Of a stretch of 64,000 nucleotides of DNA, positions 1 through 64,000 are shown piece by piece. Every line of letters starts with the position of its first letter. Position 1 is the stretch's first letter. The translations under genes were made by a program, and so were the position numbers. The notes beneath the pieces were generated by a model. It was not told where the DNA came from. It saw only the letters and a program-made list of their open reading frames with translations, and did no database searches. The stretch spans positions 2,660,201-2,724,200 of the forward strand of contig OZ014419.1 in NCBI GenBank assembly GCA_963965975.1. The letters run 5' to 3'. The DNA is from Xestospongia bergquistia. Taxonomy: Eukaryota; Porifera; Demospongiae; Haplosclerida; Petrosiidae.

Positions 1-212
1 CATTTATATATACTACACATATACCACATCAACTACAGTCAAATCCAGTCTTTGAAATTCAATTTTTGTGAAGTGTTTGATGGTCTGAAATAATTAGTAT
101 ATAATATACCAAAGATTTGTCCTTTTTGCTTGATCAAAGACTAAAAAAGCAATACATGAATGTTTAGTATGAGTACTAACAAGTATATGCTGTTAGTATA
201 TCATCTAATGAC

Positions 213-713
213 TTATATATAGTCATCATCAGTTGTAACTGTGTCTGGTAGTCTATCTGGTGGTAGAGGAGGGGGTTCAGTGTTAGTATCCACTCCAGTT
301 GAGTATGGTAGCTCCTCATATGTATGTATATCACTGGTTGTGATATAGGCTGGGTTGAATTGAGAAGATACAACACTAGTACTGTCCTGATACACTATGT
401 TAGGTGATATTTTAATTATTTCATTTCCTTCATTAGCTCTATAATAACAGATGAAAACATTGATTATAAATTTCACTGTTTCTTACTTAGTAGTAGCAAC
501 ATATTTTCCTTGTCTCATTTTATTTTGATACCACAATATCACTATACCAATAACAACTATTAATAAAACTATAACAATTATTATTACTGCTCCAATAATA
601 CCACCAACTACTGCACCACTAATTGAAGAACTATCTTGTCTACCATAAATAAGAGTCCAATTGATAATATCAGTAGAATTACTGGGAAATATTAAATAAC
701 TACCAACTTGAAC
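213..713 (-). pseudogene. Orphan transmembrane and tail exons of a family S receptor
   Basis: Two exons homologous to the 3' end of the Sema-PSI-IPT receptors: a helix exon (about 487-713) and a tail exon (213-438), separated by a short intron with GTAAG donor and TAG acceptor. The helix exon encodes a juxta-membrane segment starting VQVGSYLIF, then a long hydrophobic run, then NKMRQGKY. The tail keeps FNPAY, TYEELPYS, PPPLPPDR and a final DDDYI. No Sema, PSI or IPT exons lie upstream; the next block is an orphan family F exon. Homology to the preceding receptor exon (about 745-785) breaks off. I see an exon remnant rather than a gene, though both exons remain open and could serve as a splice cassette. 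Confidence 0.75.
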
Positions 714-839
714 CTAAACATAAAGTAGAAATGAACAATAGGGAAAATATTACAATAACTTTTATAACTGTATACTGATATTTAAGAGGCTAGGTGAAAA
801 AGACCTTAATTTGCCTTCTTACTTTAACTTCAATGTGTG

Positions 840-1050
840 TGCACATTAGGAAAGTACAAAACTAAGCTAAAGATGGCTGTGTGAAATGATCAAAAATCAA
901 ATCACATTGAATTATGTACTCAACTTCACAATTGCATGGCCAGTGTGGTTTGCACACATGAATCCCAATTGATTATCAAAGCACTACTCTGTCTATATGC
1001 TTAACATTTTACCAAATGAATACACTAAGTATGTGCATAGACATTTGTTA
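840..1050. repeat. Dispersed repeat of about 200 bp, copy 1
   Basis: About 200 bp that recurs at 44078-44286 and 48430-48630. The 48.4 kb copy is explained by the large segmental duplication, but the 44.1 kb copy lies in unrelated surroundings, so the piece has moved or been copied independently. It ends just inside the orphan family F exon. No clear terminal inverted repeats were seen. Confidence 0.6.
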
Positions 1051-1420
1051 GCTGGAGTATTAGAAACATCACAGAGAAGTGGGTTGTTGTTAATACTTTT
1101 GGTACAGTGAACATGCTGTCCATTAGGATTAATCCACTGCCCTCCAGACGAAGTGAAATTAGGTGACACACATTGGAGTGGTGAATAGTAGTAACCAAAA
1201 CTGCTTATGTTTGGTGTGATGTAGAGATGATTGATATAGGAGCCATTAGGATAACAATCTCCATTGAACATCAGGTAGATACCTAGAACATTATCAATAA
1301 ATGATTGACTATATTTCAAGCCACTTACCTGAGTCTGGTTGACAGTTACTAATAATTTCACTGACATATAATTAGAACATAGTAGCCAGTAGTAGTAGTG
1401 CTGACATTGTCATACCATCA
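993..1420 (-). pseudogene. Orphan first exons of a family F (Ig/FN3) receptor
   Basis: Homologous to exons 1 and 2 of the complete family F genes. The exon 2 part encodes GIYLMFNGDCYPNGSYINH and then a Cys-containing Ig-like strand. The exon 1 part (about 1325-1420) would start ATG TCA GCA with a Leu-rich signal-like stretch, but reaches TAA after 11 codons. No downstream FN3 exons follow in order, and the 3' side runs into the dispersed repeat. The same stop is present in the copy at about 48950, so the lesion predates the segmental duplication. Confidence 0.7.
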
Positions 1421-2075
1421 GAGCTAACAGAATCTATCTAGTTCAGTGCACACTGCCAATCTGTACACACATTGTTAAATATTAGATTATGATGAATACA
1501 CACCTCAGTAGTAATAATTAGTTACTGTTAACTACAATAATTTAATGTAGTCAATACTGTATATAATAGATTATCCAAACTTTTACTTCATATCCATTGC
1601 ATTTTAAAGTTGACTCTTCAAACAGGTACTCTACTGTATTCTTCAAACAGATAGTACTATAATTAACTGAATATTATACAATTATTGTTATTGCTCTATT
1701 TTGTTAATGGATTTCATTATGTGACATTTCATTATCAGTATATACTACAAACACAAACATGAGCAGATCTTTTGTAAAACATTTATTATTTCTATTATTA
1801 ATACAACTTACAATACTTCTGTAATTATTATTGATATAATATGTATTGATATGCTAGTTTTTTTAACATGGACATCTGAATATTGTAGCTGAATTTAATA
1901 GGTAGACAAAAATTTAATAGTTGAATGCATTATGAATTAGTCCAAAAATTATTTCACAACAGCAGCAAAAAAAGACCAAAATTAAAATCTGCTATAGACA
2001 GCAAAATATTCAATAAACTTCAAAATAGAACTAGCTACTATATTTCTGCACTCCATGTATGTGTTTACTAAAATA

Positions 2076-5000
2076 TCATATACACTCATATACACTGGTA
2101 TCTACTGGTGGTTGACACTCATCATAAATATCATCAGTTGGTTTAGACTGATGTAGACTGTAGGGCTCACAGACTTTCATTTCAATACCTTCATCAGGTC
2201 TATAGATAGACAGTGTATGAGTTAACACAAGATAACAGAAATATTACAACTTACCTACTGTCTGTTTCATGTTGAACTTTAGTGGTAGCAGTGACTGGTT
2301 CACTGAGTCTGCATCAAACAAAGAATAATTATTTATTGACATTATTAAATATCCATACCGTCTAATGTAAATAAACTGTAAGATATTCCCAACAACACTA
2401 ACTATCACTACAATCAACAGTATACCAACTAGTACACCCAGTACAGTAATAGTACTAGTGGTAGATGAAGTGACTGGAGAGATAATATAAACTTAGTAAT
2501 ATATCATGATTTTCTACATACCTTCATCTCTAGTACATAATGTTGGTTGAGGAGATATTGTTAACACAATGGTTGTGGATGGTAGCATTTGACTAGAAAT
2601 CACTGAAAAAAATAAAGCAGTATATTGATAACTTAAACTAAGCAACTTGCAACTCGATCAATGTTTGATTACCAATTACTGTCACTGAAAATACCCGTTG
2701 ATTACTAATTGCTGTCCATAGTCCATAACCTTTAACAGTGTAACCATGTACACCAAACAGATAACAGATGTTACCTATCAGCAGGCATGGGGTCAAATAC
2801 ATTGAAAAGTATTTAAATACAAATACAAATACCCTCAAAATATGAAATACAAAATACAAATACAAATACATCTAGCAGGAGTGTATTTCAAATACAAATA
2901 CTTTGAAAAGTATTTAAATACTTTTAAAATACGTCTTTGTACTATCCAGAACCTCCCCATTATTTGCTTTTACATGTAATCAACTAATCATTACAAATTA
3001 TTGATTGCATCTAATAAACATACGTTCTTCAAATGTTTTGTTGATTAGGCGACATTAATCCTATCTCACAGATAGTGTACTTGTTGGTACTTATAGGTGT
3101 CCATAGATCTTACACATAATTATGCAGAACAAAAAACAATTTAAAAGGGAGTATTTGAAGATTTCACGAAGTATTTGAAATACAAATACAAATACTTCCT
3201 GTTTCAAAAGTTCAAAATACAAATACAAATACAAATACTCAAAAAAAGTATTTAAATACAGCTAAATACAAATACTCATGTATTTGACCCCAAGCCTGCC
3301 TATCAGATCACTTATAGTCACATTTATACTACTTGTATTAGTTTTTATCATTGGATTAAACTCATCACTAGGAGAACAACTACTATTAGATTGATGAGTA
3401 GTGTACCCTATCTCATATGTGATAATAGGATAGTCTACAGGAATATAACTAGGTACACTCCATGAGATAACAGCCCATGTAGTAGACATCAAACTGGATA
3501 GTGTACTAACTAGACCAGGAACTGAGTACAAAGTACAACTGTTGTTCACTAGAACTGACAATGTATACTTACCAGTTCCAATCTGTACTTCAACAGGATC
3601 ACTGAAGGGACCTCTTCCAATAGAGTTCACACCAGCTACACTCATGTTATATACATTACCAAATCCTAGATCATTCACAATGACATATCTCTCACTACTG
3701 ATCAGGTTGTATGTGATACTATTGTTACTAATGATCACAATATACTCAATGATTCTACCATTACGTAGATGACAATCAACCTCTTCCCATGTGATATTGT
3801 TTGATGTCAAATTAACAGATGAAACCATGATTGACTTTGGTGATCCCATAGGTTCTAAAGTTGTATTAAATTTCTATTAAAACATTAAAAATATTATTTA
3901 CCTGTTGTTGGTTCTGTGTCACCTAATATCATTACTGGACTAGACTCTCCTAGTACATTACCAGCTCTCACTGTGATGGTATAGTTCATACCACTGAACA
4001 ATTCTCTTAATGTATAACTGAATGTTGTAGTGAACTGATGAGGAGTAACAGAGATCAATGTCACATTTACTGACGATAACTCAGGACAAGATGGACTATA
4101 GGAAATGTTGTAGTATGTTACATAGTTACCTTCTTCACTACTGGGACTTGTCCAATTCACTGTAATAGTAGTGGTTGAGACATCACTCACTGACAGACTA
4201 GTTACTGGTGTAGGAACTAGACAATCAAATAAAGTCACATTGTGTTTATGCAAACATCAACTCACCATCAAACCTTAACAATCTTTGTGTACTAGTAATT
4301 GAAGGAAGATCTTTATATGAGTACACACTGATCTCATAATATCTACTCAATGTTAGTCCATTGATTACAACTTCATCTTCTCTAGTAGATAATATCTTGT
4401 TGGTACCTAATCCAGTAGTAGAGTTAATGACAATCACATATCCTGTAGTCTGTGATGACATAGCCCAGTTGACTTTGATACTACTCTCATTTAAAATATA
4501 TGTCATCATATTAGATGGAGGACTACTGGGAACTAGAAAAGGATAAACCTAGTTACTAAATTTCGCATACCTTCTAGTATCACAGTGTCACTGTAGTTCA
4601 CTCCTTTATATATTGCTATACAGGTAACATTAACTGACACTCCCAGTGGATCAGGATATACCAGTAGTGTGTTGTTGTATATGAGGAGATCAGAATCAAT
4701 TAATGTATACATTGAGTTGTACTTCATTACTCCATTGACTAACCAGTAAACATCAGTAGTAACATTGACAGTAGTTGTGATACAATCAATATGATATTGA
4801 GTGTTTTGAAGTTCAGTAATGGATGAGACAAATGTCCAATTTATTGATGTAATAACTAAAAAATAAGTTGATAATGAGCAAATTTATAGAGATTACAATA
4901 CCTGATGATAATGTTTGTATACTGATTACACTACTAGCAGGTCCTAGTATATCCTGATAGGCTGTGATTGTGATGTTATAAGTTGTTGCTGGTATTAGTC

Positions 5001-6127
5001 CCTTCAGTGTTATCTCATTCTGACTACCTCCCTTTACCTGGTGTGTCACAGTGTGTATGTCACTAGTGACATTGACTACATATCCATCAGCATCAGATGG
5101 AACAGGTGTCCAATTGAGAGTGATAGTGGTAGCTGTCTTGTTGACCAGAGTAAGAGAGGGAGTAAATCCTGGAGCTGATAGGATTACATATGACATAATG
5201 TAACTATAGTAGTAAAAGTACTTACCAGTTACTGTAAGATAACGATTTCGTTTAATCTCTGCAGCTTTTACATAACACCTATGTACATGATCACCATTAT
5301 TGTTTGATTGGCTAAATATTACACTATTGATCTTCTCTGCATCCCAAGTAACAGTAAGTGCATGAAACATTGTATTGTTAATACCATATAAGAATTGAAC
5401 TGGGCCAATTTGACAGCTATATCCAAACTGTTGTGATATACAGTTGAGTTGAGTATTGTTATAATACCACTCAAAATTGTTATACCATCCACTATATACA
5501 CAATGAAGTCTGTATTGTTGTGGAACAACTGTCATATTAGAAGGAAGTTCAACAATGTTGAAGTCTGTGATCTCTACATGTCCTATAGTAGATCAGTAAC
5601 AAATGACAGTGTGTACTAGTACAATGAGATATAACTTACTGAATATATGAACAGTGATGATGTTGGCAGTAGGATCAGAACAATTACTGGGTAGACAACA
5701 CTTAAACATATCACCACCTATACTCTGTGAACCACTTATACTGACTTCATAAAATTGTTGGTGTCCACTAGGTCTATATACAGTGATGTTAGTAGGATTA
5801 TTAGATTCAATACAGCGAAGAGGATCACTGTCATTATTACTGTTACAGTTGACAGGTTGTCCAGTAGGATAGACCCACTCTCCTCCAGACAAATTAGAAT
5901 TAGGTAACACACACTGAAGATGTGATATATAGTTACTTCCTAGTGTGATGTAATTATGATTGATGTAGGAGCCATTAGGATAACAATCTCCATTGAACAT
6001 CAGGTAGATACCTAGAACATTGTTAATAAATGATGTACTATACATCAACTCACTTACCTGAGTCTGGTGGACAGTTACTAATAACTTCACTCACACATAA
6101 CAAGAAGATACCAGCAGCTGATAGCAT
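2076..6127 (-). CDS. Ig/FN3 receptor gene E, interrupted by a MITE
   Basis: Multi-exon type I receptor. In order: signal peptide exon (start about 6127), an Ig-like module with GDCYPNGSYINH, a second module with WYNNFEWYYN, FN3 (about 4910-5175), an Ig-like module, then FN3 domains around 4250-4510, 3900-4215, 3580-3850 and 3300-3500. A stalk exon, a helix exon (about 2360-2475) and a tail follow, ending PYSL, IYDE, VYECI. Most introns are phase 1. The ATG used by gene F (53118) is ACG here, so translation would start five codons later, still within a plausible signal peptide. A 517-bp hAT-type element (2782-3298) interrupts the last FN3 exon after DLIG and brings a stop, so the product as read lacks the helix and tail. 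Ligand and function are unknown. Confidence 0.75.
2782..3298. mobile_element. hAT-type MITE with 8-bp target duplication
   Basis: 517-bp non-autonomous element. Its ends are near-perfect inverted repeats: left CAGGCATGGGGTCAAATACA, right end reverse-complementing to CAGGCTTGGGGTCAAATACA. It is flanked by identical 8-bp CCTATCAG at 2774-2781 and 3299-3306, diagnostic of hAT-superfamily insertion. The interior is rich in short (A)AATAC-type repeats and has no transposase. The paralogous exon at about 50270 has an empty site with a single CTATCAG, which confirms the insertion. It is not in the duplicate block, so it inserted after the duplication or was lost there. Confidence 0.93.
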
Positions 6128-12100: not shown

Positions 12101-12113
12101 CTTCTTTAAAATT

Positions 12114-12410
12114 TTAAAGCTTAAATACTCGAGACCCAGTTGAATTAAGTCTAGTACATTCTCTTGATGTCTGATCTCCATTTGTTCTTGACAATGAATT
12201 CCTGCCAGCAAATCCATATTGACAAAAATTGATGCGTTGATTGTTATTGTTATAAGTCCCAGTGTAGAAACTTTCTCCTCCCCTAACACGAGCAGGAAAC
12301 AAGGCAATATTTTTTTTGATAAGTACACCAGGAGACATTATATCAGAAACGGTTCTGTTAGCAGTAGAACTAAGATCTGATCTGCTAATTAAGAGCTGAA
12401 CAAAAGCCAT
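12114..12410 (-). pseudogene. Fragment of a family S Sema exon
   Basis: Encodes a diverged piece of the Sema domain first exon: blocks such as GGESFYTGT and FCQYGFAG align with the same blocks in genes A, C and D (GGESFYTG and RQYGFAGSS). It starts and ends abruptly, has no signal peptide exon start and no following Sema exons. It is markedly more diverged from A, C and D than they are from each other, so it is an older relic. Confidence 0.7.
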
Positions 12411-12484
12411 AATAATAACACACTAACAACCATACATACATCCTATACAATATAATTATAATTAATAAAACTATACTCGTGGGA

Positions 12485-15950: not shown

Positions 15951-18345
15951 TCATATACACTCATATACACTGGTATCTACTGATGGTTCACACTCATCAT
16001 AAACATTATCAGTTGGTTTAGACTGATGTAGACTGTAGGGCTCACAGACTTTCATTTCAATATCTTCATCAGGTCTATAGATAGACATATATCATGATCT
16101 TCTACACACCTTCGTCTCTAGTACATAGTGTTGGTTGAGGAGATATTGTTAACACAATGATTGTGGATGGTAGCATTTGACTAGAAATCACTGGAAAAAG
16201 TAAGAAATAGTATATTGATAACTTGAACTAAGCAACTTGTAACTTAATTAATGTTCAATTACCAAATTACTGTCACTAAAAATACCTGTTGTATGTAACT
16301 CAACTAGAGTTTGGTTACTGTCCATAATCCATAACCATTAACATGTACACCAAACAGATAACAGCTGTTACCTATCAGATCACTTATAGTCACATTTATA
16401 CTACTTGTATTAGTTTTTATTATTGGACTAAACTCATCACTATGAGAACAACTATCATTAGACTGATGAGTAGTGTACCCTATCTCATATGTGATAATAG
16501 GATAGTCTACAGGAATATAACTAGGTACACTCCATGAAATAACAGCCCATGTAGTAGACATCAAACTGGATAGTGTATTAACTTGACAGGGAACTGAGTA
16601 CAAACTATAATTATTGTTCACTAGAACTGACAATGTACTTACCAGTTCCAATATATACCTCTTCCAATAGAGTTCACACCAGCTATACTCATGTTATATA
16701 CATTACCAAATACTAGGTCATTCACAATGACATATCTCTCACTACTGGTCAGGTTGTATGTGATACTATTGTTACTAATGATCACAATATACTCAATGAT
16801 TCTACCATTACATAGATGACAATCAACCTCTTCCCATCTGATCTTTTTTGATATCTTGTTTAATGGAAAATCCATAATTGATGTAGGTGGATCTGTGGAT
16901 TATTGTCAACATTAAACAGCCATATTATCATGTAAATTACTTGATGTTGGTTCTGTTTCACCTAATATCATCACTGGACTAGACTCTCCTAGTATATTAC
17001 CAGCTCTCACTGTGATGGTATAGTTTATACCACTGAACAATTCTTTTAATTTATAATTGAATATTGTAGTGGATTGATGTGGAGTAACAGAGACCAACGT
17101 CACATTTACTGATTATATATAACTCAGGACAAGATGGAATATAGGAAATGTTGTAGTATGTTACATAGTTACCATCATCACTACTGGGACTAGTCCAATT
17201 CACTCTAATAGTAGTGGTTGAGATATCACTCACTGACAGATTAGTTACTGGTGTAGGAACTAGATAATTAAATAAAGTCACATTGTGTTTATACTAATTT
17301 CAACTCACCATCAAATCTTAACAATCTTTGTCTACTATTAATTAAAGGAAGATCTTTATATGAATGCACAATGAACTCATAATATCTACTCAATGTTAGT
17401 TCATTAATTATAACTTTATTTTCTGTAGTAGATAATATCTTGTTGGTATCTATTCCAGTAGTAGAGTTAATGACAATCACATATCCAGTAGTCTCTGATG
17501 ACATAGTCCAGTTGACTTTGATACTACTCTCATTTAAAATATATATCATCACATTAGATGGAGGACCAATGGGAACTAGAAAAGGGTAAACCTAGTTAAG
17601 ATGAATAACTAAATTTCACATACCTTGTAATATCACAGTGTCATTGTAGTTCACTCCTTTATACATTGCTATACAGGTAACATTAACTGACACTCCCAGT
17701 GGATCAGGATATACCAGTAGTGTGTTGTTGTATATGAGGAGATCAGAATCAATTAATGTATACATTGAGTTGGACTTCATCACTCCATTCACTAACCAGT
17801 AAACATCAGTAGTAATATTGAAAGTAGTTGTGATACAATCAATATGATATTGAGTGTTTTGAAGTTGAGTAATGGATGAGACAAATGTCCAATTGATTAA
17901 TGAAAATACTAAAGAAAATTAATTTATAATGACCAATATTTGATGGATTATTAGAATACCTGATGTTTGTACACTAATTACATTACTAGCAGATCCTAGT
18001 ATATCTTGATATGCTCTGACTGTGATGTTATAAATTGTTGCTAGTATTAGTCCTTTCAGTGTCATCTCATTCTGACTACCTCCCTTTACCTGTTGTGTCA
18101 CAGTGTGTGTGTCATTAGTGACATTGACTACATCTTCATCAACATCAGATGGAACAGGTGTCCAACTGACTGTGATAGTGGTAGCTGTCTTCTTGACCAG
18201 AGTAGGAGAGGGAGTGAATCCTGGAGCTGAGAGGATTACATATGACATCATGTAACTATAGTAGTAAAAGTACTTACCAGTTACTGTAAGATAACGATTT
18301 CTTATAATGTCTGCACCTTCTGCATAACACCTATATACATGATCA
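15951..18345 (-). pseudogene. Ig/FN3 receptor pseudogene G
   Basis: Copy of the family F gene from the first FN3 domain to the tail. FN3 exons at about 17960-18235, 17305-17550, 16940-17265, 16665-16860 and 16310-16620 and an Ig-like exon at about 17625-17910 are recognisable. Lesions: an insertion near 17110 shifts frame in the third FN3; about 23 bp are lost at the end of the fourth (near 16655); a TAG ends the fifth (near 16305). The helix exon and the exon before the tail are deleted, so the tail exon (15951-16075) follows almost directly on the stalk exon near 16085. The N-terminal exons are missing and the 5' side is joined to family S sequence near 18370. Confidence 0.8.
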
Positions 18346-18375
18346 CCATTATTGTTAGACTGACTAATGATCTTC

Positions 18376-18960
18376 TCATAATGATATAATATTAAATATA
18401 TTTATTCTGTCCATGACTCTTACTGAAATCTCAAGTTCAACTGAATCTTGTCCAATTATTATTGTACGATGGACCACATTAGTTATATCATTAAAAATAG
18501 GATCTTTTTTGAGAGTAAGTCCGAACTCAGACTGACTACTGTCTGGTGAAGCAAATTGATCTAGTATCAATGTATAAGTCACTGTAGTATCAATGGCACT
18601 AGTCATATTAACTCCACTAATAGGAGGAGCTCTACATTGTAGTTTAGTACTACTAACATTAACACATTGCTATAAAAGAGAGAGAAATAAGATGATTACA
18701 TCACTGACTGAATAATAGGGGTCAGGAATCGCAACTGGGTACTACTGACATAGGTTGAGGTGCTGTAGTATTTATAGTTACATTGCTTATTATAGTATTA
18801 CTGTTATTAGGAGCAATACTAGATATTATTCTCTTCCCAGGCACATACAGATCTGGGTTAGAGGTGCATGTCCTATTGCCGAGGGTAACGGAGATGATAT
18901 CTGAGGACTGGATTCCCAAATTATTACCATATTGTTACTATCTTATTAGTACATATACTC
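18376..18960 (-). pseudogene. Chimeric scrap of family S IPT exons
   Basis: Two pieces of the Sema-PSI-IPT receptors in wrong juxtaposition. 18376-18700 matches the IPT-type exon of gene A at about 57349-57615 (VVHRTIIIGQDSVELEIS). 18716-18950 matches part of the large PSI-IPT exon (TCTSNPDLYVPGKRI). The connection skips several exons, and the second piece lacks its PSI half and most of its upstream IPT. It lies between pseudogene G and the 3' end of gene D. Confidence 0.75.
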
Positions 18961-27822: not shown

Positions 27823-27878
<56 letters not shown>

Positions 27879-47535: not shown

Positions 47536-48297
47536 TTATATATAGTCATCATCATCATTATCAGTTGTAACTGTCTCTGGTAGTCTATCTGGTGGTAGAG
47601 GAGGAGGTTCAGTGTTAGTATCAGGTCCAGTTGAGTATGGTAGCTCCTCATATGTATGTATATCACTGGTTGTGATATAGGCTGGGTTGAATTGAGAAGG
47701 GACAACACCAGTACTGTCCTGATACACTATGTTAGGTGATATTTTAATTATTTCATTTCCTTCCTTAGCTCTATAATAACAGATGAAAACATTGATTATA
47801 AATTTCACTGTTTCTTACTTAGTAGTAGCAGCATATTTTCCTTGTCTCATTTTATTTTGATACCACAATATCATTATAACAATTAATAAAACTATAACAA
47901 TTATTATTACTGCTCCAATAATACCACCACCAACTACTGCACCACTAATTGAAGATCTATCTTCTTGTCTACCATAAATAAGAGGTGATATTTTAATTAT
48001 TTCATTTCCTCCAATATCACTATGATGAAAGAATTAACTTGGTAATAAATTTAATTTTATCTTACTTTACTGAGTTATTCCTTTTTCTTTTTAATTTATT
48101 TTTAATTCACATTATCACTATAATAACAACAACTATTAATAAAACTATAACAATTATTATTACTACTCCAATAATACCACCAACTACTGCACCACTAATT
48201 GAAGAACTATCTTCTTGTCTACCATAAATAAGAGTCCAATTGATAATATCAGTAGAATTATTGGGAAATATTAAATAACTACCAACTTGAACCTAAA
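47536..48297 (-). pseudogene. Orphan family S tail with tandemly duplicated helix exons
   Basis: In transcription order: a helix exon (about 48297-48063), the first codons of a tail exon (NDIGGNEIIKISP, about 48025-47985), then an abrupt in-frame join to a second helix exon segment (LIYGRQEDRSSISG..., 47984-47823), a short intron, and a complete tail exon (47536-47770) with NPAY, YEELPYS, PPPLPP and DDDDYI. Sema, PSI and IPT exons are absent. The in-frame join would make a product with two hydrophobic helices before the tail. I consider it an exon remnant unless transcription is shown. Confidence 0.75.
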
Positions 48298-48578
48298 CAT
48301 AAAGTGGAAATGAACAATAGGGAAAATATTACAATAACTTTTATAACTGTATACTGATATTTAAGAAGCTAGGTGAAAAAGACCTTAATTTGCCTTCTCA
48401 CTTTAACTTCAATGTGTGTGCACATTACAATTTAAGGAAAGTACAAAACTAAGCTAAAGATGGCTGTGTGAAATGATCAAAAATCAAATCACATTGAATT
48501 ATGTACTCAACTTCACAATTGCATGGCCAGTGTGGTTTGCACACATGAACCCAATTGATTATCAAAGCACTACTCTGT

Positions 48579-49000
48579 CTATATGCTTAACATTTTACCA
48601 AATGAATACACTAAGTATGTGCATAGACATTTCATAGCTGGAGTATTAGAAATATCACAGAAAAGTGGGTCGTTGTTAATACTGTTGGTACAGTAAACAT
48701 GTTGTCCATTAGGATTATCCTCTGCCCTCCATGTGAAATTAGGTGACACACATAGGAGTGTTGAATAGTAGTAACCAAAACTGCTTGTGTTTGGTGTGAT
48801 GTAGAGATGATTGATATAGGAGCCATTAGGATAACAATCTCCATTGAACATCAGGTAGATACCTAGAACATTGTCAATAAATGACTGACTATATTTCAAG
48901 CCACTTACCTGAGTCTGGTTGACAGTTACCAATAATTTCACTGACATATAATTAGAACATTGTATCCAGTAGTAGTAGTGCTGACATTGTCATATCATCA
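48579..49000 (-). pseudogene. Orphan family F first exons, second copy
   Basis: Duplicate of 993-1420, with the same TAA in the signal peptide exon (ATG at about 48990, stop 11 codons later). Its exon 2 lacks a few codons around the SGGQW site and has no following FN3 exons. Confidence 0.7.
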
Positions 49001-49653: not shown

Positions 49654-52600
49654 TCATATACACTCATATACATTGGTATCTACTGGTGATTGACACTCAT
49701 CATAAATATCATCAGTTGGTTTAGACTGATGTAGACTGTAGGGCTCACAGACTTTCATTTCAATACCTTCATCAGGTCTATAGATAGATAGTATATGAGT
49801 TAATACAAGATAACAGAAATATGACAACTTACCTACTATCTGTTTGTTGTTGAACTTTAGTGGTAGCAGTGACTGGTTCACTGAGTCTGCATCAAACAAA
49901 GAATAATTACTTATTGACATTATTAATAATATCCATACCGTCTGTTGTAAATAATCTGTAAGATATTCCCAACAACACTAACTATCACTACAATCAACAG
50001 TATACCAACTAGTACACTCAGTACAGTAATAGTACTAGTGTTAGATGAAGTGACTGGAGAGATAATATAAACTTAGTAATATATCATGATTTTCTACATA
50101 CCTTCATCTCTAGTACATAGTGTTGGTTGAGGATATATCGTTAACACAATGGTTGTGGATGATAGCATTTGACTAGAAATCACTGAAAAAAAAAGTTTGA
50201 TTACCAATTACTGTCCATAATCCATAACCATTAACAGTGTAATCATGTACATCAAACATATAACAGGTGTTACCTATCAGATCATTTATATTCACATTTA
50301 TACTACTTGTATTGGCTTTTATCATTGGACTAAACTCATCACTAGAAGAACAACTATCATTAGACTGATGACTAGTGTACCCTATCTCATATGTGATAAT
50401 AGGATAGTCTACAGGAATATAACTAGGTATACTCCATGAGATAACAGCCCATGTAATAGACATTAAACTGGATAGTGTACTAACTGGACCAGGAACTGAG
50501 TACAAAGTACAACAACAATTAGAACTGACAATGTACTTACCAGTTCCAATCTGTACTTCAATAGGATCACTGAAGGGACCTCTTCCAATAGAGTTCACGC
50601 CAGCTACACTCATGTTATATACATTACCAAATACTAGATTATTCACAATGACATATCTCTTGCTACTGGTCAGGTTGTATGTGATACTATTGTTACTAAT
50701 GATCACAATATACTCAATGATTCTACCATTACGTAGATGACAATCAACCTCTTCCCATGTGATTCTGTTTGATGTCAAACTAACAGATGAAACCATGATT
50801 GACTTTGGTGATCCCATAGGTTCTAAAGTTATTAAATTTCTATTAAAACATTAAAAGTATTATTTACCTGTTCTTGGTTCTGTGTCACCTAATATCATCA
50901 TTGGACTAGACTCTCCTAGTATATTACCAGCTCTCACTGTGATGGTATAGTTCATGCCACTGAACAATTCTCTTAATGTATAACTGAATGTTGTAGTGAA
51001 CTGATAAAGAGTAACAGAGATCAATGTCACATTTACTGACGATAACTCAGGACAAGATGGACTATAGGAAATTTTGTAGTATGTTACATAGTTACCATCT
51101 TCACTACTGGGACTAGTCCACTTCACTCTAATAGTAGTGGTTGAAACATCACTCACTGAGTGATTAGTTACTGGTGTAGGAACTAGACAATCAAATAAAG
51201 TCACATTGTGTTTATGCAAACATCAACTCACCATCAAACCTTAACAATCTTTGTGTACTAGTAATTGAAGGAAGATCTTTATATGAGTACACACTGATCT
51301 CATAATATCTACTCAATGTTAGTCCATTGATTACAACTTCATCTTCTCTAGTAGATAATATCTTGTTGGTACCTAATCCAGTAGTAGAGTTAATGACAAT
51401 CACATATCCAGTAGTCTGTGATGACATAGTCCAGTTGACTTTGATACTACTCTCATTTAAAATATATGTCATCATATTAGATGGAGGACCACTGGGAACT
51501 AGAAAAGGGTAAATCTAGTTAAGATGAACAACTAAATTTCACATACTTTGTAATATCACAGTGTCACTGTAGTTCACTCCTTTATACATTGCTATACATG
51601 TAACATTAACTGACACTCCCAGTGGATCAGGATATACCAGTAGTGTGTTGTTGTATATGAGGAGATCAGAATCAATTAATGTATACATTGAATTGTACTT
51701 CATCACTCCATTCACTAACCAGTAAACATCAGTAGTAATATTGACAGTAGTTGTCATACAGCTAACAGCATTTTGAAGTGTAGTAGTTAACAAAATCCAA
51801 TTGATAGATGATATACCTATAGCTATAAATTATTGAATTATCAAAATAATATATGAAAATCTATACCTGTAGTTAGATTTATATTGGTTTGTATACTGAT
51901 TGCATTACTAGCAGGTCCCAGTATATCTTGATAGGCTCTGACTGTGATGTTATAAATTGTTGCTGGTATCAGTCCTTTCAGTGTCATCTCATTCTGACTA
52001 CCTCCCTTTACCTGGTGTGTCACAGTGTGTGTGTCACTAGTGACATTGACTACATATCCATCAGCATCAGATGGAACAGATGTCCAACTGACAGTGATAG
52101 TGGTAGCTGTCTTGTTGATGAGAGTAGGAGGAGAGGGAGTGAATCCTGGAGCTGAGAGGATTATATATGATATATCATGTAACTGTAGTAGAAACAGTAC
52201 TTACCAGTTACTGTAAGATAACGATTTCGTTTAATCTCCACAGCTCTTATATAACATCTATGTACATGATCACCATTATTGTTTGACTGACTAAATATTC
52301 CACTATTGATTTCCTCTGCATCCCACGTAACAGTAAGAGTATGAAACTTTGTACTGTTAATACCATATAGGAATTGAATTGGGCCAATTTGACAGCTGTA
52401 TCCAAACTGTTGTGATGTACAGTCGAGTTGAGTATTGTTATAATACCACTCAAAATTGTTATACCATCCACTATATACACAATGAAGTCTGTATTGTTGT
52501 GGAACAACTGTCATATTAGAAGGAAGTTCAACAACATTGAAGTCTATGATCTCTACATGTCCTATAGTAGATCAGTAACAAATGACAGTGTGTACTAGTA

Positions 52601-53118
52601 CAATGAAATATAACTTACTGAATATATGAACAGTGATGATGCTGGTAGTAGGATTAGAACAATTACTAGGTAGACAACACTTAAACATATCACCACCTAT
52701 ACTCTGTGAACCACTTATACTGACTTCATAAAATTGTTGTCCACTAGGTTTATATACAGTGATGTTAGCAGGATTATTGGAGATAATACAGCGGAGAGGA
52801 TCACTGTCACTATTACTGTTACAGTTGACAGGTTGTCCATTAGGATAGACCCACTGTCCTCCAGACAAATTGGAATTAGGTAACACACACTGAAGATGTG
52901 ATATGTAGTTACTTCCTGGTGTGATGTAATTATGATTGATGTAGGAGCCATTAGGATAACAATCTCCATTGAACATCAGGTAGATACCTAGAACATTGTT
53001 AATAAATGATGTACTATACATCAACTCACTTACCTGAGTCTGGTGGACAGTTACTAATAACTTCACTCATACATAACAAGAAGATACCAGCCGCTGATAA
53101 CATATCTACTACTGACAT
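49654..53118 (-). CDS. Ig/FN3 receptor gene F, most complete copy
   Basis: Start ATG at 53116-53118 with signal peptide MSVVDMLSAAGIFLLCM, then NCPPDSG. Ectodomain in order: Ig-like module (52630-52990), second Cys-rich module (about 52205-52550), FN3 (51875-52150), Ig-like (51545-51815), FN3 (51230-51490), FN3 (50870-51190), FN3 (50545-50815) and FN3 (50206-50510). A stalk exon (50105-50182), a helix exon (about 49942-50055), a short exon (about 49836-49890) and a tail exon (49654-49785) follow. The roughly 60-residue tail has PYSL, IYDE and VYECI, possible SH2 docking sites, and no enzymatic domain. Most introns are phase 1, typical of shuffled extracellular domains. The intron between the last FN3 and the stalk is only 22 nt (50183-50204) against 70 nt in gene E; if it is not removed the frame shifts to a stop and the product ends before the helix. 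Confidence 0.8.
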
Positions 53119-55552: not shown

Positions 55553-58500
55553 TTATATATAGTCATCATCATCATTATCAGCTGTAACTGTCTCTGGTAG
55601 TCTATCTGGTGGTAGAGGAGGAGGTTCAGTGTTAGTATCCAGTCCAGTTGAGTAAGGTAATTCCTCATATGTATGTATATCACTGCTTGCGATATAGGCT
55701 GGGTTGAATTGAGAAGGGACAACACCAGTACTGTCCTGATACACTATGTTAGGAGATATTTTAATTATTTCATTTCCTTCAATAGCTCTATAATAACAGA
55801 TGAAAACATTGATTATAAATTTCACTGTTTCTTACTTAGTAGCAACATATTTTCCTTGTCTCATTTTATTTTGATAACATAATATCACTATAATAATAAC
55901 AAGTATTAATAAAACTATAACAATTATTATTACTGCTCCAATAATACCACCAACTACTGCACCACTAATTGAAGAACTATCTTCTTGTCTACCATAAATA
56001 AGAATCCAATTGATAATATCAGTAGAATTAATGGGAAATATTAAATAACTACCAACTTGAACCTAAACATAAAGTGGAAATGAACAATAGGAAATATGAG
56101 ATATATATACTTACAGTAACATTTATAACTGTATACTGATATTTAACTGGTGGTATACATGCTATGATCTGAGACATATATCACTTGATATCAATACATA
56201 TTACATCATTCATACTTTATTTGATAGAGACTCAATTCTACATTCCTCAGAACCAACTTTCACATTTATTTCTGAACTAATCACAGATTGAATATTACTT
56301 CCCTATAAACAAATATGATAAATTATATAACTACATTAAGTGGATACACTGACTCTTATCCTAATAGTCTGTGAACTATCTCCTAAATCAATAATATGAT
56401 CATTAGAATCAATTCCATTGAAAGTAGGATTTGGCTTGAGAGTAAGTATGAACTCAGACTGACTACTGTCTGGTGAAGTAACTCCATCTAATATCAATGT
56501 ATAAGTCACTCTAGTATTAATAGCTTTAGCGACATTAATTCCACTAATGGGAGGAGCTATACACTGCAGTTTAGTACTGCTAATATTAACACATTGCTAT
56601 AAGAGAGAGAAGTCAGGTGATTATATATTAAACTAATATATTGGTCATGCCTCAGTTGTAGTAGAAAATCTAGAGTCAGTGATACGAATCATAGGAGATT
56701 GGATTATATCTACATTAGTACCAGTAAAGTTTAACTTGATACCTCCACTATATAACAGACAACACATCACTTAGTCTCATAATGTACTCTACTTACGCTG
56801 GTATAGTTATTGGAGGAGTTAGTGAACTAAATGATGACTTTAATTGGTAGGTAATCACCCATTGTGATGCTCCTTTGTCACTTTCAGGTGGGAAGACAAG
56901 ATTTTCTCCAACAAAAACCTAACAGAAAACAAATATTAACATTACTATATTGAGATTTTAAATATAATGTAGGAAGAAGTCTTTTATTATGCTTGTTGAG
57001 CCTTATTGAAATTTGGAAATTGTCATTTGCTCATTAAAATGAAATCAAGCTTAATTTTTTACTTGTAAAGTATTTGCTCAATATTTTAATACATATACTA
57101 CTTAATATTTAATGATGTACTCACTTTAACTGGCAATATTATAGGTGTAGTTCTAGTAGGTGGTTTACAGTCAATAGTCTAGTTTATTAAGAAATAAAGT
57201 AAGTACAATAGTTAGAGAACTATAAATACTCACTGTAGAAGATGTGGTTGTTAGAATACATTTCTCTTCACCAACAAATATTCTTATCTCTGAACGATCT
57301 ACAGAGTCAATGTTTGCTCCCTAAACACAAATATAATATTAAATATATCAATTCTGTCCATGATTCTTACTGAAATCTCAAGTTCAACTGAATCTTGTCC
57401 AATTATTATTGTACGATGGACCACATTAGTTATACCATCGAAAATAGGATCTGGTTTGAGTGTAAGTCTCAACTCAGACTGACAACTGTCTGGTGAAGTA
57501 ACTTCATCTAATATCAATGTATAAGTCACTGTACTATCAATATCACTAGCGACATTAATTCCACTAATGGGAGGAGCTATACACTGTAGTTTAGTACTAC
57601 TTATATTAACACATTGCTATAAGAGAGAGGAGTCAGGTGATTATATATTAAACTAGTATATTGGTCAAACCTCAGTCGTAGTAGAAAATCTAGAGTCAGT
57701 GATATGGATCATAGGAGACTGGATTACATCTACATTAGTACCAGTAAAGTTTAACTTGATACCTCCACTATATAACAGACAACACATCACTTAGTCTCAT
57801 AATGTACTGTACTTACACTGGTATAGTTATTTGAGGAGTTAGTGAACTAAATGTGGGATCTGGTTTATAAAGATATGTCACTGCTGAATTACTAAACTCT
57901 GCTTCATTTACTGACACTATTACAGTCCTGGTACAATTAATAGAAGTAACATTAGCTGAAGTACATTGGATTTGAGTTGAGTTAATGTTCCTGAGAAGAG
58001 AACCAATCTTATATGATACTAGTGTGTACTATAGTAAGTCATTAACACTTACATAATATTGCACTCAATATCAGGACAATGACTGCTCCTCTTTCTCCTC
58101 TTTTTTGATGAGGACCCTCTCATGATCACTTTGGTCTCTTCATTGTTACCAATATCCAAGTTAGTTCCTTCTACTCTCACTAGAGTACCTCCACTAACTG
58201 GACCAAATGTAGGATTCACTGACCGAATAGTAGGAGTCAGGAATTGGAAGTGGGTACCACTGATAGCTGTCTTAGGTTGAGGTGCAGTAGTATTCACTGT
58301 CACAGTTATAATTACATTGCTTGTTACAGTATTATTATCATCAGGAGTAATACTACATACTATCCTCGTACCAGGTACATACAGATCTGAGTTAGAGGTA
58401 CATGTCCTACTGCCGAGGATAACAGAGAGGATTTCTGAGGACTGGGTACCCAAATTGGTGCCAATTATAGTAACACGAGTTCTTCCTTGAGGTGGACCAC

Positions 58501-61500
58501 TTGTGGGAGTAAAGTAAATGATGACAGGATTAGGACAGTCTCCATTCATTGTGACTATATTATTAGTACATACACTCCTCTCACTACACATATTACTATC
58601 ACACCAACTACAGTTAAATCCAGTGTTAATGTTCTGAGCTAGACATGAAGAACAACCATTAGCCAGTGTAGGACAATTGTATAGGACCACTATACATAAG
58701 ACAGAATACTCAGCAGTTTACTTTATATATTAGACTTACCATTAATAGTGTCTCCAGTAGTAGTCTCTATATCATAGGATTTGGTATTAGAGATCTGTCT
58801 TAGAATGAAAGGATAGGTCTGAATCTGATTATGACCTCCACTAAATGACAACTGTAATAATATAATGATGTATCTTCTAATAATACAATATACTTACCTC
58901 CTGACCACTGGGTATATTACATGTAATAATATTGTCACTAGTTTGTATACCAGTTCTAACCATGTTACCAAATACACATTGGTATGTTATACCACTAGTC
59001 TGAATAAAGAGAGAGGGAGGAGGAAGAGAGAGAGACAGAGAGAGAGAAGAAAGCACTTTTTTATAAATCATATTCTTTTTCTAACGTAACATGATGGATA
59101 TTTTCAGTTTGTTTAGTAAGTTTACTTATGACCAATAAGACATCCACTATATATGAGGCCTTAAAATACATCTAAACAATGTGATGTGACTTCAAAATCT
59201 TGACATCAAACTATTTCCTATCCAACTAGAATAACAGAGTGCACCTGTCTATATTACCAAAGCTTAATTCCTGAACTTTTCACAACATTTATATCTCTCC
59301 TACTAATCTATCAAAGATTTGTAGTATATACATTTTTAGATTGCTTTCTTATCATACACGTAATTATGATATACTTACCATAGTATTAAGAGTTCTTAAT
59401 TGTAGGTTCTTGCTCACACTAACAGGTTGACTATAACTATTACCATATAAGGGAGGTTGTAGGAGAGGACAGAGATCAGTGGAATTCTCCTCATCAGTTA
59501 TCTGTGATAAAATGTACCAGTAGTAATTATACTTTTATATTATAGGGTCTTACTCTTATCCAGTTATCATCTCCTCCTATACAAGTGGAGTTATCTCCAG
59601 TACATGTAAAATCTAACTGACACCATCCACATATACCATCTGTTGAGACACAAGGACTACATCTGAAATGAAAAGAGTTGAGAAATATTAGCAAAAAGCT
59701 CAAGTAAGCTATCAAACCAAATTGTGTTTATTTTATCTATAAAATAATTCATTTACAAAGTACTTGTCATGAGAATGAGAATATTATTATAAATATATAA
59801 ACACTATAGTCATCAGGTGTGTGTAGCTACTAGTTAGTTAGTACATGAAATAATTATCCATTACTCTAATTATTGTAAACCATAACATATGAGTAACAAT
59901 TATTATAACCATATCAAGTTAGGATATAATACACTAAGTTCACACATGTATGAGTAACAAAATGTACGTATGACTATTAAAATTAAGAGCTAATTTTGTT
60001 TGTTATTATTTATTAAAGGAACACATAACTGTATTATAGATTTACTTTGTAGGAACAGAACAGTTATAGAAAATATAATGGTCAGTATGTATGAAGAAAT
60101 TCACTCCACTATGATTACTATAGATACTAAAGTTAGTAACTAAAAGAGGAACATTAAAAGATAGTTAGTAATCAATGATGTACTTTACCTAGTTGTATAT
60201 CAGTGACTTGAGATATGACATTATCTACTTGACAAGTGGCACTAGTACCGTTTACTTGTAATGGACTTAATATCTCAATATTTAGAGATGTGTTATTAAA
60301 AACACAGAAATACTCCTCTCCTGGTAACTTAGGAGGAGGACCAGCAGGAGAAAATGTTAAGTCAATCTAAAGAGAGAGAGAGAGAGAGAGATTAAAAAGA
60401 AAATGGTTCATATAATAGTACCTGGTATGGTATTGATTCTAACTCCAGTACAAATCGAGGTGGAACAAAAGCATTTGTATCAATGCAACTATCACTATTC
60501 CCTTGAGTCAAGAATCGTCCTTGTATATCACTGTCCTGACAAAAAAGTCTACGAGAACATTTACCTTCAACTACACACCACCCACATAATGGATTACCCA
60601 GACTAACACACTCATTACAACTAGTACCACTAGCACACTCCTCTATCTTTAAACCGATTACCTATCAACAAACATTATGTTATATAGTACAATATATATA
60701 TATATATATATACTAGTACTTACATCAGTAGTTCCATTAATACCATATATATAGTCTGAACCTTCTGACCAGGTAAGTCTAGTTACTGAACTAGACATCT
60801 CAACCTCAGTAATAAGACTAACGTTTCCATTATCCAACAAATACTGTAGAACAGATTAACACATCAACTAGAGTATAGTATATATCTCTGACCTTGTTAA
60901 TATAGTGTTTGTTACTATCAGAGAATGAAATATAAATGAAGTTGAGATCATCTACAGTCAGTCCAAGAATAGATGTTAGTCCATTACTTATTGTAGTGTT
61001 AGTAATAATATTGTTAGAAGAAAGAACACCAATAGCACCTACTGCTGGAAATGTACCACTAATATCACACTATAAAAAGAAAGAACAATCAAATAAATTA
61101 AATGTCTCATCATTGAGCTCACCATAGTACCAGATAATCCTGAACACAACTGGGTTTGCCACTGAATATTACTATTACCACTATTACCTACTACACAGGA
61201 CTGATAAGCATTTTCCATTATGGAGTTAATAATTGTAATATTATAGGAACAGACTCTACTAGGTGAACCTTGTGGTGTTATTGCTATCAGTAATGTCTCT
61301 CCATTTAACACTGATACACCTTTGATAGTGGGAGCAAAGAAACTATTTCCATCACAACCTAATACCACTTCATATTGATTGTTGAAATCAATATTACCAC
61401 TGTCAACTGTACTGTTACATACTCTAACAATACGAAGTTCATCATTACCACTAGTTGAATCTAGTACTATATAGTAAACATATCCAAATTGGTAGAAACC

Positions 61501-62013
61501 ATCATAAAATTCTCGATTACCACCTGATTGATAAGCATGTTCGTCTAGTGATCTTGATATTGAGCTACCAGCAAACCCATATTGACGAAAATAGATACGA
61601 TTAGCACTATCAACAAAAGTCCCAGTGTAGAAACTTTCTCCTCCAATAACAGGAACAGTGAACACAGCAATTTTATCACTAGCTTGAAAACCAGGAGGTA
61701 CATAAGAGACAGCTCTGTTAGTAACACTGAGATCTGATCCATTAAGAGCTGAACAAGAGCCATTAGTATAACAGACTACCAACCATTGACCATCCTGTGT
61801 AGCAGCTAACCTCACTATCTGATTGAACAGTGATGTTTGTTGTTGTTGTTGAAGAACAGATGATAGTTGGTAGACAGTACTACTAGTACTAGCAAACACT
61901 CTATCTCCACCAACAGTTAGAGAGCTAACACTACCAGATAGAGTGAAAGAAGGAGACTGAGCTCTAACACTTATTAACAAATGGAGTATCAGCAAAAGAG
62001 AGAGAACACTCAT
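55553..62013 (-). CDS. Sema-PSI-IPT receptor gene A, intact
   Basis: About 23 exons, roughly 1,500 residues. Signal peptide MSVLSLLLILHLLISVR; Sema exons 61123-62013, 60893-61069 and 60724-60843; PSI 60422-60661 (CNECVSLGNPLCGWCVVEGK); linker 60189-60366 and 60046-60139; second PSI 59554-59662 (GICGWCQLDFTC); IPT exons 59379-59501, 58898-58999 and 58740-58851; large exon 58053-58689 with a third Cys-rich motif, two IPTs and a polybasic KKRRKRSSH; then 57817-57990 and several small IPT exons. Helix exon about 55846-56063, tail 55553-55795. The tail carries VYQDS, FNPAY, TYEELPYS, PPPLPPDR and DDDDYI. Unlike its paralogues it repeats one IPT set (about 56203-56800 and about 56797-57615), including a second VxVGxxLxF exon that normally precedes the helix. 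The ectodomain resembles plexin/MET, but no RasGAP or kinase follows. Probable membrane receptor; ligand unknown. Confidence 0.85.
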
Positions 62014-62085: not shown

Positions 62086-62098
62086 CCCCCCCCCCCTT
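62086..62098. repeat. Poly-C tract upstream of gene A
   Basis: A run of about 12 C residues 70-85 bp upstream of the gene A start. The same place has 7 C in gene D (about 24609) and 5 C in gene C (about 30921), so it is a length-variable homopolymer. Confidence 0.8.
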
Positions 62099-62597
62099 CC
62101 TCAAATATGTCCTAGAGGATATTATTATAATATCCCCTGGCTTCTTGTTTCCTTAATTTGGATCTAAAGCCAGTAATAGACATGTAAGACTATCACAATC
62201 AACATTTTTAACATCAAAAAGTTAGAAAACATTAAAAAGTTAATACAATGCAAAGGATATCAACAAATTTTAAAAATGATAGTATTGAATTTATAGTGAT
62301 TAAAAAATGATTAAGTTAATAAAGATAAATTAATTTATATGTTTTTTACATGTCTTTTTAATAAATAGAGTAATGTACTTGATTTTAATATAATAGTGTC
62401 ATAGAATATTTCATAGAGAGGATACAAAGGAAACAAAGAATTTTAAGGAGGAGATATATAAAAAGGAACAGACAATATCAAGAAGTCAATTGATGACAAA
62501 TTTTAATTTCATAATTATAATTAAAAAAACATGTCTCAGTCCATTAATTATAAACAAGATAACAGACATGTACTACTACATACATGTAATAAAAATT

Positions 62598-62752
62598 CAT
62601 AACTGTCTTTATATACAATTAATGAAAATATATAACAATAGTGAAGGTTTCTAAGTCTGTAAAAGATAAATAAAGTGATCATTTCTATATATACAAGGTA
62701 TCCAGTACTATATCATGATGTATAAGATGACTAATTATAATAAGAGTCTTTT
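62598..62752. other. Micro-inverted intergenic segment
   Basis: This 155-bp piece is the reverse complement of 25116-25270, while the sequence on both sides matches the region around gene C in direct orientation (about 62380-62595 with 24880-25105, and 62753-62880 with 25271-25400). The copy near 31440-31600 has the gene C orientation, so the inversion occurred here. Confidence 0.85.
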
Positions 62753-62872
62753 TAATATTCTTTAAAATATTGTAATACATAACAGCAAAGTAATAGACAT
62801 GTCTATTAAAACTATAACATGTTGTCAGGAGTAACATCTAACAAGATAAAAAACAGTATATCATTTAATGAC

Positions 62873-63840
62873 TTATATATAGTCATCATCATCATTATCA
62901 GCTGTAACTGTCTCTGGTAGTCTATCTGGTGGTAGAGGAGGAGGTTCAGTGTTAGTATCCAGTCCAGTTGAATAAGGTAACTTCTCATATGTATGTATAT
63001 CACTAGTTGTGATATAGGCTGGGTTGAATTGAGAAGGTACAACACCAGTACTGTCCTGATACACTATGTTAGGAGATATTTTAATTATTTCACTTCCTCC
63101 AATAACACTATGATGAAAGAATTAACTTGATAATAAATTTAATTTTATCTTACTTTACTGAGTTATTCCTTTTTCTTTTTGATTTATTTTTACAAGTAAC
63201 TCCATCTAATATCAATGCATAAGTCACTGTAGTATCAATGGCACTAGTGATATTAACTCCATTAATAGGAGAAGCTGTACACTGTAGTTTAGTACTATTA
63301 ACATTAACACATTGCTATAAGAGAGAGACATCAGGTGATTACATTAAACTTGTACATTGGTCAGACCTCAGTGGTAGTAGGAAATCTAGAGTCAGTGATA
63401 TGGATCATAGGAGATTGGATTACATCTACATTAGTACCAGTAAAGTTTAACTTGATACCTCCACTATATAACAGACAACACATCACTTAGTCTCATAATG
63501 TACTCTACTTACGCTGGTATAGTTATTTGAGGAGTCAGTGAACTAAATGTGGGATCTGGTTTATAAAGATATGTCACTGCTGAATTACTAAACTCTGCTT
63601 CATTTACTGACACTATTATAGTCCTGGTACAATTAACAAAAGAAACATTAGCTGAAGTACATTGGATTTGAGTTGAGTTAATGTTCCTGAGAAGAGAACC
63701 AATCTTATATGATACTAGTGTGTACTATAGTAAGTCATTAACACTTACATAATATTGCACTCAATATCAGGACAATGACTGCTCCTCTTTCTCCTCTTAT
63801 TTAATGAGGACTGTCTCGTGATTACTTTGGTCTCTTCTTT
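62873..63840 (-). pseudogene. Family S receptor remnant with in-frame loss of the helix
   Basis: Contains, in transcription order, the end of the large PSI/IPT exon (63774-63840, ending NKRRKRSSHCPD), the next IPT exons (about 63515-63690 and 63368-63460), an IPT exon that breaks off at LDGVTC (about 63194), and a tail exon (62873-63100) with NPAY, YEKLPYS, PPPLPP and DDDDYI. At about 63194 the IPT exon is joined directly and in frame to the juxtamembrane codons KNKSKRKRNNSV, so the stalk and hydrophobic helix are gone. The 5' side is cut at 63840, where RasGEF sequence in opposite orientation begins. Confidence 0.8.
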
Positions 63841-64000
63841 GCTGTTTTTCTAATACAGCAAACTAGATAAGTTCATGTATGAAATATATGGAGTAAACTG
63901 TGGTGATGAAATACGTCATCACTTAGTAGGAAACATATATAACAACATCCCTTGTATACCATATCTTGGATGGCTTTTGAGTTATATCATCAGATCTGAA
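63841..64000 (+). pseudogene. Partial second copy of the RasGEF-like gene, runs off the window
   Basis: From TTTTTCTAATACAG onward it matches intron 3 and exon 4 of the gene at 13123-14838 (NKLDKFMYEIYGVNCGDEIR against NKLEKFMYQICGVNCDDEIR, then PCIPYLGWLL). Exons 1-3 are absent on this side, being replaced by receptor sequence. The frame is open to the window edge. Whether exon 4 continues intact cannot be seen. Confidence 0.8.

Follow-up and report, generated by a model that had tools for sequence, protein, structure and literature searches.

Plexin-like receptor genes without a RasGAP domain in a tandem array of the sponge Xestospongia bergquistia

Sema-PSI-IPT genes of the window

The stretch of DNA studied here (the window) comprises 64,000 nucleotides of the demosponge Xestospongia bergquistia (contig OZ014419.1, here C9, positions 2660201-2724200) and carries plexin-like genes of the Sema-PSI-IPT type, interleaved with receptor genes of an immunoglobulin (Ig)-like/fibronectin type III (FN3) type. 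Gene models were obtained from the listing of open reading frames (ORFs), self-comparison and a small splice-aware gene finder, and the genome searched amounts to 146 Mb in 21 contigs. All the receptor genes of the window are on the minus strand: four Sema-PSI-IPT genes (SemaA to SemaD), the Ig/FN3 genes IgA and IgC, a partial IgB, and several fragments. A previous reading of the letters of the window (the sequence-only reading) had described four long Sema-PSI-IPT genes, three Ig/FN3 genes and about nine fragments, nearly all of them on one strand, with very similar copies and shuffled exons. This description was confirmed, IgB being only partial, and SemaA to SemaD share 83-95% DNA identity pairwise across kilobases, far above chance. 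The Sema models have a signal-peptide-like start, mostly short introns and, at the end, a transmembrane (TM) exon followed by a tail some 75 residues long. Two types of Sema head, B and C, are distinguished; plexin(+) and plexin(-) are two RasGAP plexins located elsewhere on C9. The main features, in window coordinates, are:

19165..24535, minus strand: SemaA, plexin-type gene with head B, PSI-IPT backbone, TM exon and a frameshifted, early-ending tail
25396..30849, minus strand: SemaB, with head B, backbone, TM exon and tail; a 38-bp deletion removes the 3' end of its first PSI exon and takes in the donor
26197..26439, minus strand: SemaB exon e14; DNA homology to RasGAP plexin(+) stops inside it, at 26255, the joining point of the tail cassette
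32776..38522, minus strand: SemaC, chimera of head C (exons 38522 to 37164) and the common backbone; frameshifts in e7, the TM exon and the tail
36888..37159, minus strand: SemaC head/backbone junction; plexin(-) DNA homology stops at 37159 and plexin(+) homology begins at 36888
55553..62013, minus strand: SemaD, with head B, TM exon and tail, the backbone carrying one more IPT block of parent-like type; 18 of 18 canonical exons intact
55553..56062, minus strand: SemaD TM exon (56062-55836) and tail exon (55787-55553), with NPAY, YEEL, PPPLPPDR and an acidic DDDDYI end

Plexins are textbook RasGAP receptors. The array genes end instead in the short tail and have no RasGAP, clear matches to PF08337 (plexin RasGAP) being found only at the two plexin loci elsewhere on C9. 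With respect to the ectodomain, Pfam detects PSI and IPT in SemaC and SemaD, but reports a Sema domain neither for these two genes nor for the first SemaB exon; PF01403 has a single matching place in the genome, on C8. A profile built from the four heads matches plexins in PDB (plexin A) with E=6.4e-15. The genes carry an IPT series, unlike semaphorins, in which Sema and PSI occur without such a series. Pfam finds no kinase domain in SemaC, SemaD or IgA, and among the kinases listed for the genome, for which 129 of 1201 candidates were scored, none falls within C9:1.9-2.9 Mb. Strong tyrosine-kinase-type matches are clustered at C6:1.62-1.70 Mb and C11:5.92-6.07 Mb. The proposal of a lineage-specific, expanding receptor cluster devoid of RasGAP and kinase domains is supported by these results. 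As judged by homology, the array genes have the ectodomain of a plexin, and their RasGAP-bearing parents can be identified on the same contig.

Extent of the array

The window is part of an array of about 0.4 Mb (C9:2.48-2.88 Mb). When the window proteins were searched against 284 kb (the window and 220 kb of flanks), array units turned up between window coordinates -119.9 kb and +148.5 kb, and the left end of the array lies beyond this read. Copy counts over the whole genome, which are lower bounds, give at least 22 full-length, stop-free array copies of the PSI-IPT exon (209 aa), at least 18 array copies of head-B exon 1 that cover at least 290 of its 297 residues (one of them with a stop), and at least six full-length array copies of head-C exon 1. 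Nearly all the head-B matches of the genome (69 of 70) are on C9, where further relics, most of them carrying stops, extend over 3.33-4.20 Mb. The right part of the array (C9:2.766-2.88 Mb), which spans about +105.8 to +148.5 kb, is on the plus strand, that is, in the opposite orientation, and a stretch of 200 N (+105777 to +105976) separates the two orientations.

Parent plexins and chimeric heads

The two loci with clear PF08337 matches are at C9:1.934-1.937 Mb (minus strand) and C9:1.958-1.960 Mb (plus strand); a weak match (E=0.57) is present on C12. The two C9 plexins are back to back, divergently transcribed and apparently full-length, at 0.7 Mb from the window. SemaB and plexin(+) share 86% DNA identity over 1991 nt, from the head to exon e6. 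In another two stretches of the backbone, of 315 and 1625 nt, identity reaches 93-94%; the short introns are part of these alignments, and the pair of long introns in between cannot be aligned. Homology to plexin(+) stops within exon e14, after which the array genes carry a new TM segment and tail. SemaD and S20B, another copy of the array, have an additional parent-like IPT block ahead of the array-type end (read by eye).

SemaC shows a different pattern. Its head is 87% identical in DNA to that of plexin(-) over 1317 nt, and its backbone is 84-93% identical to that of plexin(+); the plexin(-) backbone differs, with 33-38% protein identity over three short stretches. At the protein level, the SemaB and SemaC heads are 77-84% identical to RasGAP plexin heads (82-84% in part of the comparisons), and the Sema region of SemaC is about 27-32% identical to those of the other Sema genes. 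Likewise, the DNA identity between SemaC and SemaB is 45-51% across the Sema exons and jumps to 97% at the PSI exon. Since head C matches plexin(-) and the backbone matches plexin(+), SemaC-type genes are, on alignment evidence, chimeras whose junction lies between window positions 37159 and 36888. All six full-length C heads of the array are followed within about 10 kb by a same-strand backbone exon of plexin(+) type, which is broken in one case. The DNA alignments of SemaC with the copies S11C and S03C are continuous across the head/backbone junction; this suggests that the C-head genes arose by one fusion and were then amplified together.

Sequence exchange between copies

Trees of the head and of the backbone are not congruent. 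The C-head genes do not come out as one clade when the tree is built from the large PSI-IPT exon (approximately unbiased (AU) test, p=0.0036). This exon also rejects a clade seen in the head tree, that of S05B, S06B and plexin(+) (AU p=1.3e-5) and, conversely, the head rejects the PSI-IPT clade of S20B, S06B, S08B, SemaD and plexin (AU p=8e-9). The RasGAP plexin clusters with particular array copies in both the head tree and the PSI-IPT exon tree; the head-B tree is poorly resolved, with 12 of 15 inner branches open. Because head and backbone trees conflict, recombination or gene conversion between copies would be the plain reading to which these data point.

The Sema tail

The tail of about 75 residues contains NPAY, YEEL and PPPLPPDR and has an acidic end (in SemaA it is frameshifted). 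We take NPAY to point to PTB domains, YEEL and the other tyrosines to SH2 domains, and PPPLPPDR to SH3 domains. An immunoreceptor tyrosine-based activation motif consists of two YxxL/I motifs 6-12 residues apart; the Sema tail, examined by eye, has one YEEL and no second YxxL/I at that distance. The tyrosine motifs noted in the sequence-only reading are kept in the Sema tail: among the 21 Sema tails of the 284 kb, relics included, NPxY is present in 20 and YEEL in 17. The idea of a tail common to both receptor families fails for intact genes, NPAY-YEEL-PPPLPP being the Sema tail and the Ig/FN3 tail being different. A genome-wide search for the tail linked to any ectodomain had also been proposed. 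The tail has 58 matches in the genome, all of them on C9; it is also found behind orphan Ig-like exons, apparently in relics. A third gene type, composed of an Ig-like exon and the Sema TM and tail exons, was considered and rejected. In the four copies examined the gene finder detected no signal-peptide exon, and the TM exon is interrupted in two of them; these pieces are treated as relics.

A second locus with plexin-like exons, unlinked to the array, is located at C6:1.32-1.34 Mb, with some exons near C6:1.323 Mb. Its 3' part (C6:1331000-1340499; 4 kb read), to which the reading of the locus was confined, contains IPT-like exons, a TM segment and a tyrosine-rich tail of about 300 residues. 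This tail has four YxxM motifs, a number reached in none of 5000 shuffles, and PF08337 gives no match at the locus.

Ig/FN3 genes and other elements

The remaining features of the window are:

2076..6127, minus strand: IgA, Ig-like/FN3 receptor with its own TM segment and tail; an insert interrupts one of its exons
2782..3298, no strand assigned: hAT-like insert of 517 bp in an FN3 exon of IgA, with terminal inverted repeats and the 8-bp direct repeat CTGATAGG on either side
15954..18401, minus strand: IgB, Ig/FN3 copy, partial and damaged
49654..53118, minus strand: IgC, Ig-like/FN3 receptor with 12 open exons with GT/AG ends and its own tail
213..1409, minus strand: relic, orphan Ig-like exon with Sema-type TM and tail exons
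47536..48989, minus strand: relic, orphan Ig-like exon with Sema-type TM (partly duplicated) and tail exons
18379..18992, minus strand: relic, IPT exons of a Sema gene
62876..63849, minus strand: relic, IPT exons and tail from the 3' end of a Sema gene
12117..12432, minus strand: relic, head B fragment

The FN3 half of the label Ig/FN3 stands, PF00041 matching IgA with E=6.4e-39, and the Ig half was not confirmed. The three "Ig" exons have no significant sequence match in Pfam or PDB (the best are Ig_ADGRF3 at E=0.17 and one PDB chain at E=1.1), and structure models were too poor for use, with predicted local distance difference test scores of 35 (one Ig-like exon, AlphaFold) and 38. These genes have their own TM segment and a tail ending in ...DDIYDECQ..VYECI, for which 85 matches at E<=1 are found on C9, C2, C8, C7, C1 and C4. 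One Ig-like exon has 101 matches in the genome at E<=0.001, most of which are on C9 or in a pair of arrays on C2 (4.95-5.12 and 6.84-6.96 Mb); the interval C9:1.99-2.48 Mb, which separates the Sema array from the plexin pair, holds 31 of the 101. Two C2 members show similar architecture and tail, and no kinase-linked relatives were found among the listed matches, with the same 129 of 1201 kinase candidates scored. The Ig/FN3 genes are a dispersed family whose tail is unlike that of the Sema genes.

Other sequences lie among the receptor genes. A RasGEF-like gene piece is present at 13117-14838 (plus strand), its first part giving a weak RasGEF match (E=1e-4); it recurs at 86880-88604 and 89503-91218, and truncated versions lie at -18206 and 63854 (window coordinates). 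A coiled-coil-like coding piece is found near receptor genes at 6887-7765, 46184-47035 and 53871-54749 (minus strand), and the 284 kb contain it in 14 places; its first copy has no match in Pfam. A long transposase ORF (DDE_1, HTH_psq) at 39880-41766 (plus strand) precedes a 248-bp tandem repeat present in four copies (41834-42820).

Decay and selection

The integrity of the Sema genes was checked against canonical exons in 17 loci, S19B and smaller relics being left out. Six are fully intact over their 18 exons, namely S03C, S07C, S08B, S11C, SemaD and S17B, so that SemaD is the only intact one of the four window genes. Two of nine Ig/FN3 loci are intact, one of them being the reference: IgC, with 12 of 12 exons intact, is its own reference, and its check covers stops and splice dinucleotides only. 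The damage includes the frameshift of the SemaA tail and frameshifts in three SemaC exons, among them a 5-bp deletion in the tail. Some single-base frameshifts could be assembly errors, which is less likely for the 5-bp SemaC tail and 38-bp SemaB deletions.

The ratio of nonsynonymous to synonymous differences between copies (pN/pS, intervals by codon bootstrap) is 0.76 (0.57-1.00) for head B exon 1 (18 rows including the parent), 0.51 (0.37-0.68) for head C exon 1 (seven rows), 0.48 (0.35-0.67) for the large IPT exon and 0.56 (0.41-0.77) for the first Ig-like exon. When array copies only are taken, without intervals, five of 20 exons exceed 1, all of them small: head B e3 (1.14), head C e2 (1.61), TM (2.00), FN2 (1.84) and the Ig/FN3 tail (6.17). 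With more rows, the values for FN2 and the Ig/FN3 tail are 1.15 (0.63-2.94) and 1.17 (0.66-2.73). One sub-window of head B has pN 0.116 versus pS 0.031, uncorrected and one of 20 that overlap. Positive selection was not detected exon-wide over the large head exons with pN/pS between copies of one assembly; the small exons above 1 and the head-B sub-window count as leads only. Divergence is 1-8% in exons, 2-13% in short introns and about 20% in the two long introns. An acceleration of exons with respect to introns, suggested by three short introns, was not upheld in a fuller comparison.

Origin and possible functions

As far as homology can tell, the Sema genes are shown to be plexin duplicates in which the tail has replaced the RasGAP domain. 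An ordinary plexin (head B, PSI-IPT, TM and RasGAP) was duplicated, and everything 3' of a point in the last IPT region was swapped for a cassette providing a new TM segment and the Tyr/Pro tail. One copy also acquired the Sema head (head C) of the neighbouring, divergently transcribed plexin, and both forms were amplified together with Ig-like/FN3 receptors to give the present array, which recombines and decays. The intact copies might be surface receptors whose ligands are of the kind bound by the parent plexins (semaphorin-like, or the ectodomain of another plexin), and they would signal through phosphotyrosine and SH3 adaptors bound to the tail and not through a GAP of their own that turns off Ras/Rap. 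That these are receptors with plexin ligand-binding heads and tail adaptors we infer with moderate confidence; a recognition role is plausible. Taken as a whole, plexin duplicates with a tail cassette, the intact copies being putative adaptor-signalling receptors, are the explanation that we consider probable, with clear reservations.

Several observations weigh against it. Eleven of the 17 Sema loci checked are damaged and, because of this and because exons diverge about as fast as short introns, net constraint is weak overall. The TM exon has a pN/pS of 2.0 (1.01-6.02), which could reflect lost constraint as well as adaptation, and for the Sema tail (0.55, 0.30-1.02, 15 rows) the interval touches 1. 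No source of the tail cassette was found in the genome, all the tail matches being on C9. One of the four tree tests did not reject the grouping at issue, that of SemaB and S04B in the head tree (p=0.086). In addition, the backbone copy number was obtained with a query of plexin(+) type only.

Among other explanations, decoy function, immune or self/non-self recognition and largely neutral turnover are not mutually exclusive. The GAP-less copies could be decoys that bind, damp or titrate the ligands of the RasGAP plexins, the tail serving only for anchoring or traffic. The close similarity of the SemaB and SemaC heads to RasGAP plexin heads and the absence of RasGAP fit this proposal, which is nevertheless rather unlikely, as a pure decoy does not need the tail motifs that most copies keep, and the unlinked GAP-less C6 locus also has a long tyrosine tail. 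About equally unlikely is a mostly neutral process, in which unequal crossing-over of a duplicated plexin followed by decay would leave few or no copies in use. The scarcity of intact loci in both families, the relics at C9:3.33-4.20 Mb and the intron-like divergence of exons are in its favour; the 22 stop-free, full-length copies of the 209-aa exon and the upper bounds of pN/pS for head C exon 1 and the large IPT exon (0.68 and 0.67) are not.

Polymorphic immune or self/non-self receptors, whose heads would vary between individuals under diversifying or balancing selection, are somewhat more doubtful still. The tandem array, its two head types, the length-variable head loop and the recombination between copies would suit them, as would the divergent head-B sub-window and the small exons with ratios above 1. 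A plexin-group receptor of Halichondria panicea, which has a homologue in Amphimedon queenslandica, and a Sema gene are up 6 h after lipopolysaccharide treatment (PMC8242945). However, the large head exons have pN/pS below 1 and the ratios of FN2 and the Ig/FN3 tail fall close to 1 with more rows; by word search, plexin, immunoglobulin and fibronectin do not occur in the main text of a graft transcriptome study of A. queenslandica (PMC5450542). A broader proposal, to which we give the same low standing, is a plexin-built recognition system for self/non-self or for symbionts and microbes. It would combine the two head types of the back-to-back plexin pair with a single homogenised backbone and a phosphotyrosine docking tail, amplified and shuffled alongside the Ig-like/FN3 genes across some 1 Mb of receptor loci, and the RasGAP parents would still be exchanging sequence with the array. 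Finally, an assembly artefact, with two haplotypes placed end to end, could be invoked for the five longest repeated blocks (8-11 kb), which are 93-97% identical. It is highly improbable: no receptor-region pair reaches 97% over 1 kb in the 284 kb, block order is not collinear, and there are two head types as well as indels private to single copies.

Relation to known receptor systems

Derivation from plexins with a new tail, the reading preferred here, can be compared with several known systems. Classical plexins share the Sema-PSI-IPT ectodomain and the single TM segment, whereas the array genes lack RasGAP, have a short Tyr/Pro tail and are arranged in tandem. MET and Met-LP receptor kinases also place a plexin-type ectodomain on a different cytoplasmic part, but the array genes have no kinase domain. 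The allorecognition receptors of Hydractinia and Botryllus are likewise clustered and duplicating, with extracellular modules, TM and short tail; they have no plexin ectodomain, and polymorphism has been shown for them, in contrast to the single assembly considered here.

GAP-less plexins have already been reported in the sponge Amphimedon: A. queenslandica has two full-length plexins, a pattern that the present genome fits, and four more (Plexin-A1 to -A4) with a plexin ectodomain and a short intracellular part without conserved domain (PMC6374515). They are four, versus at least 22 backbone copies in one array here, and a cluster, parents, head exchange or a tail like the present one do not appear in the parts described of that work, the comparison being one of descriptions. 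In Schistosoma mansoni, a subtelomeric 49-copy PSI cluster (PMC10900676) is also a segmental-duplication array of membrane proteins with a plexin repeat, although in the portion available no Sema or IPT is named and no derivation from a nearby RasGAP plexin is stated. The literature searched, which was covered partially and by titles and abstracts, contained no description of such an array, of head exchange or of this tail. The array, its derivation from a plexin pair, the chimeric heads and the tail swap are what is new, GAP-less sponge plexins being already known.

Since parents and derivatives are on one contig, the steps from a GAP receptor to a receptor with a docking-type tail, including the acquisition of the head of a neighbour, are directly readable. 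The C6 locus with its YxxM-rich tail suggests that the same change has perhaps taken place more than once in this lineage. For an animal group whose recognition receptor genes are poorly known, the array supplies concrete candidates.

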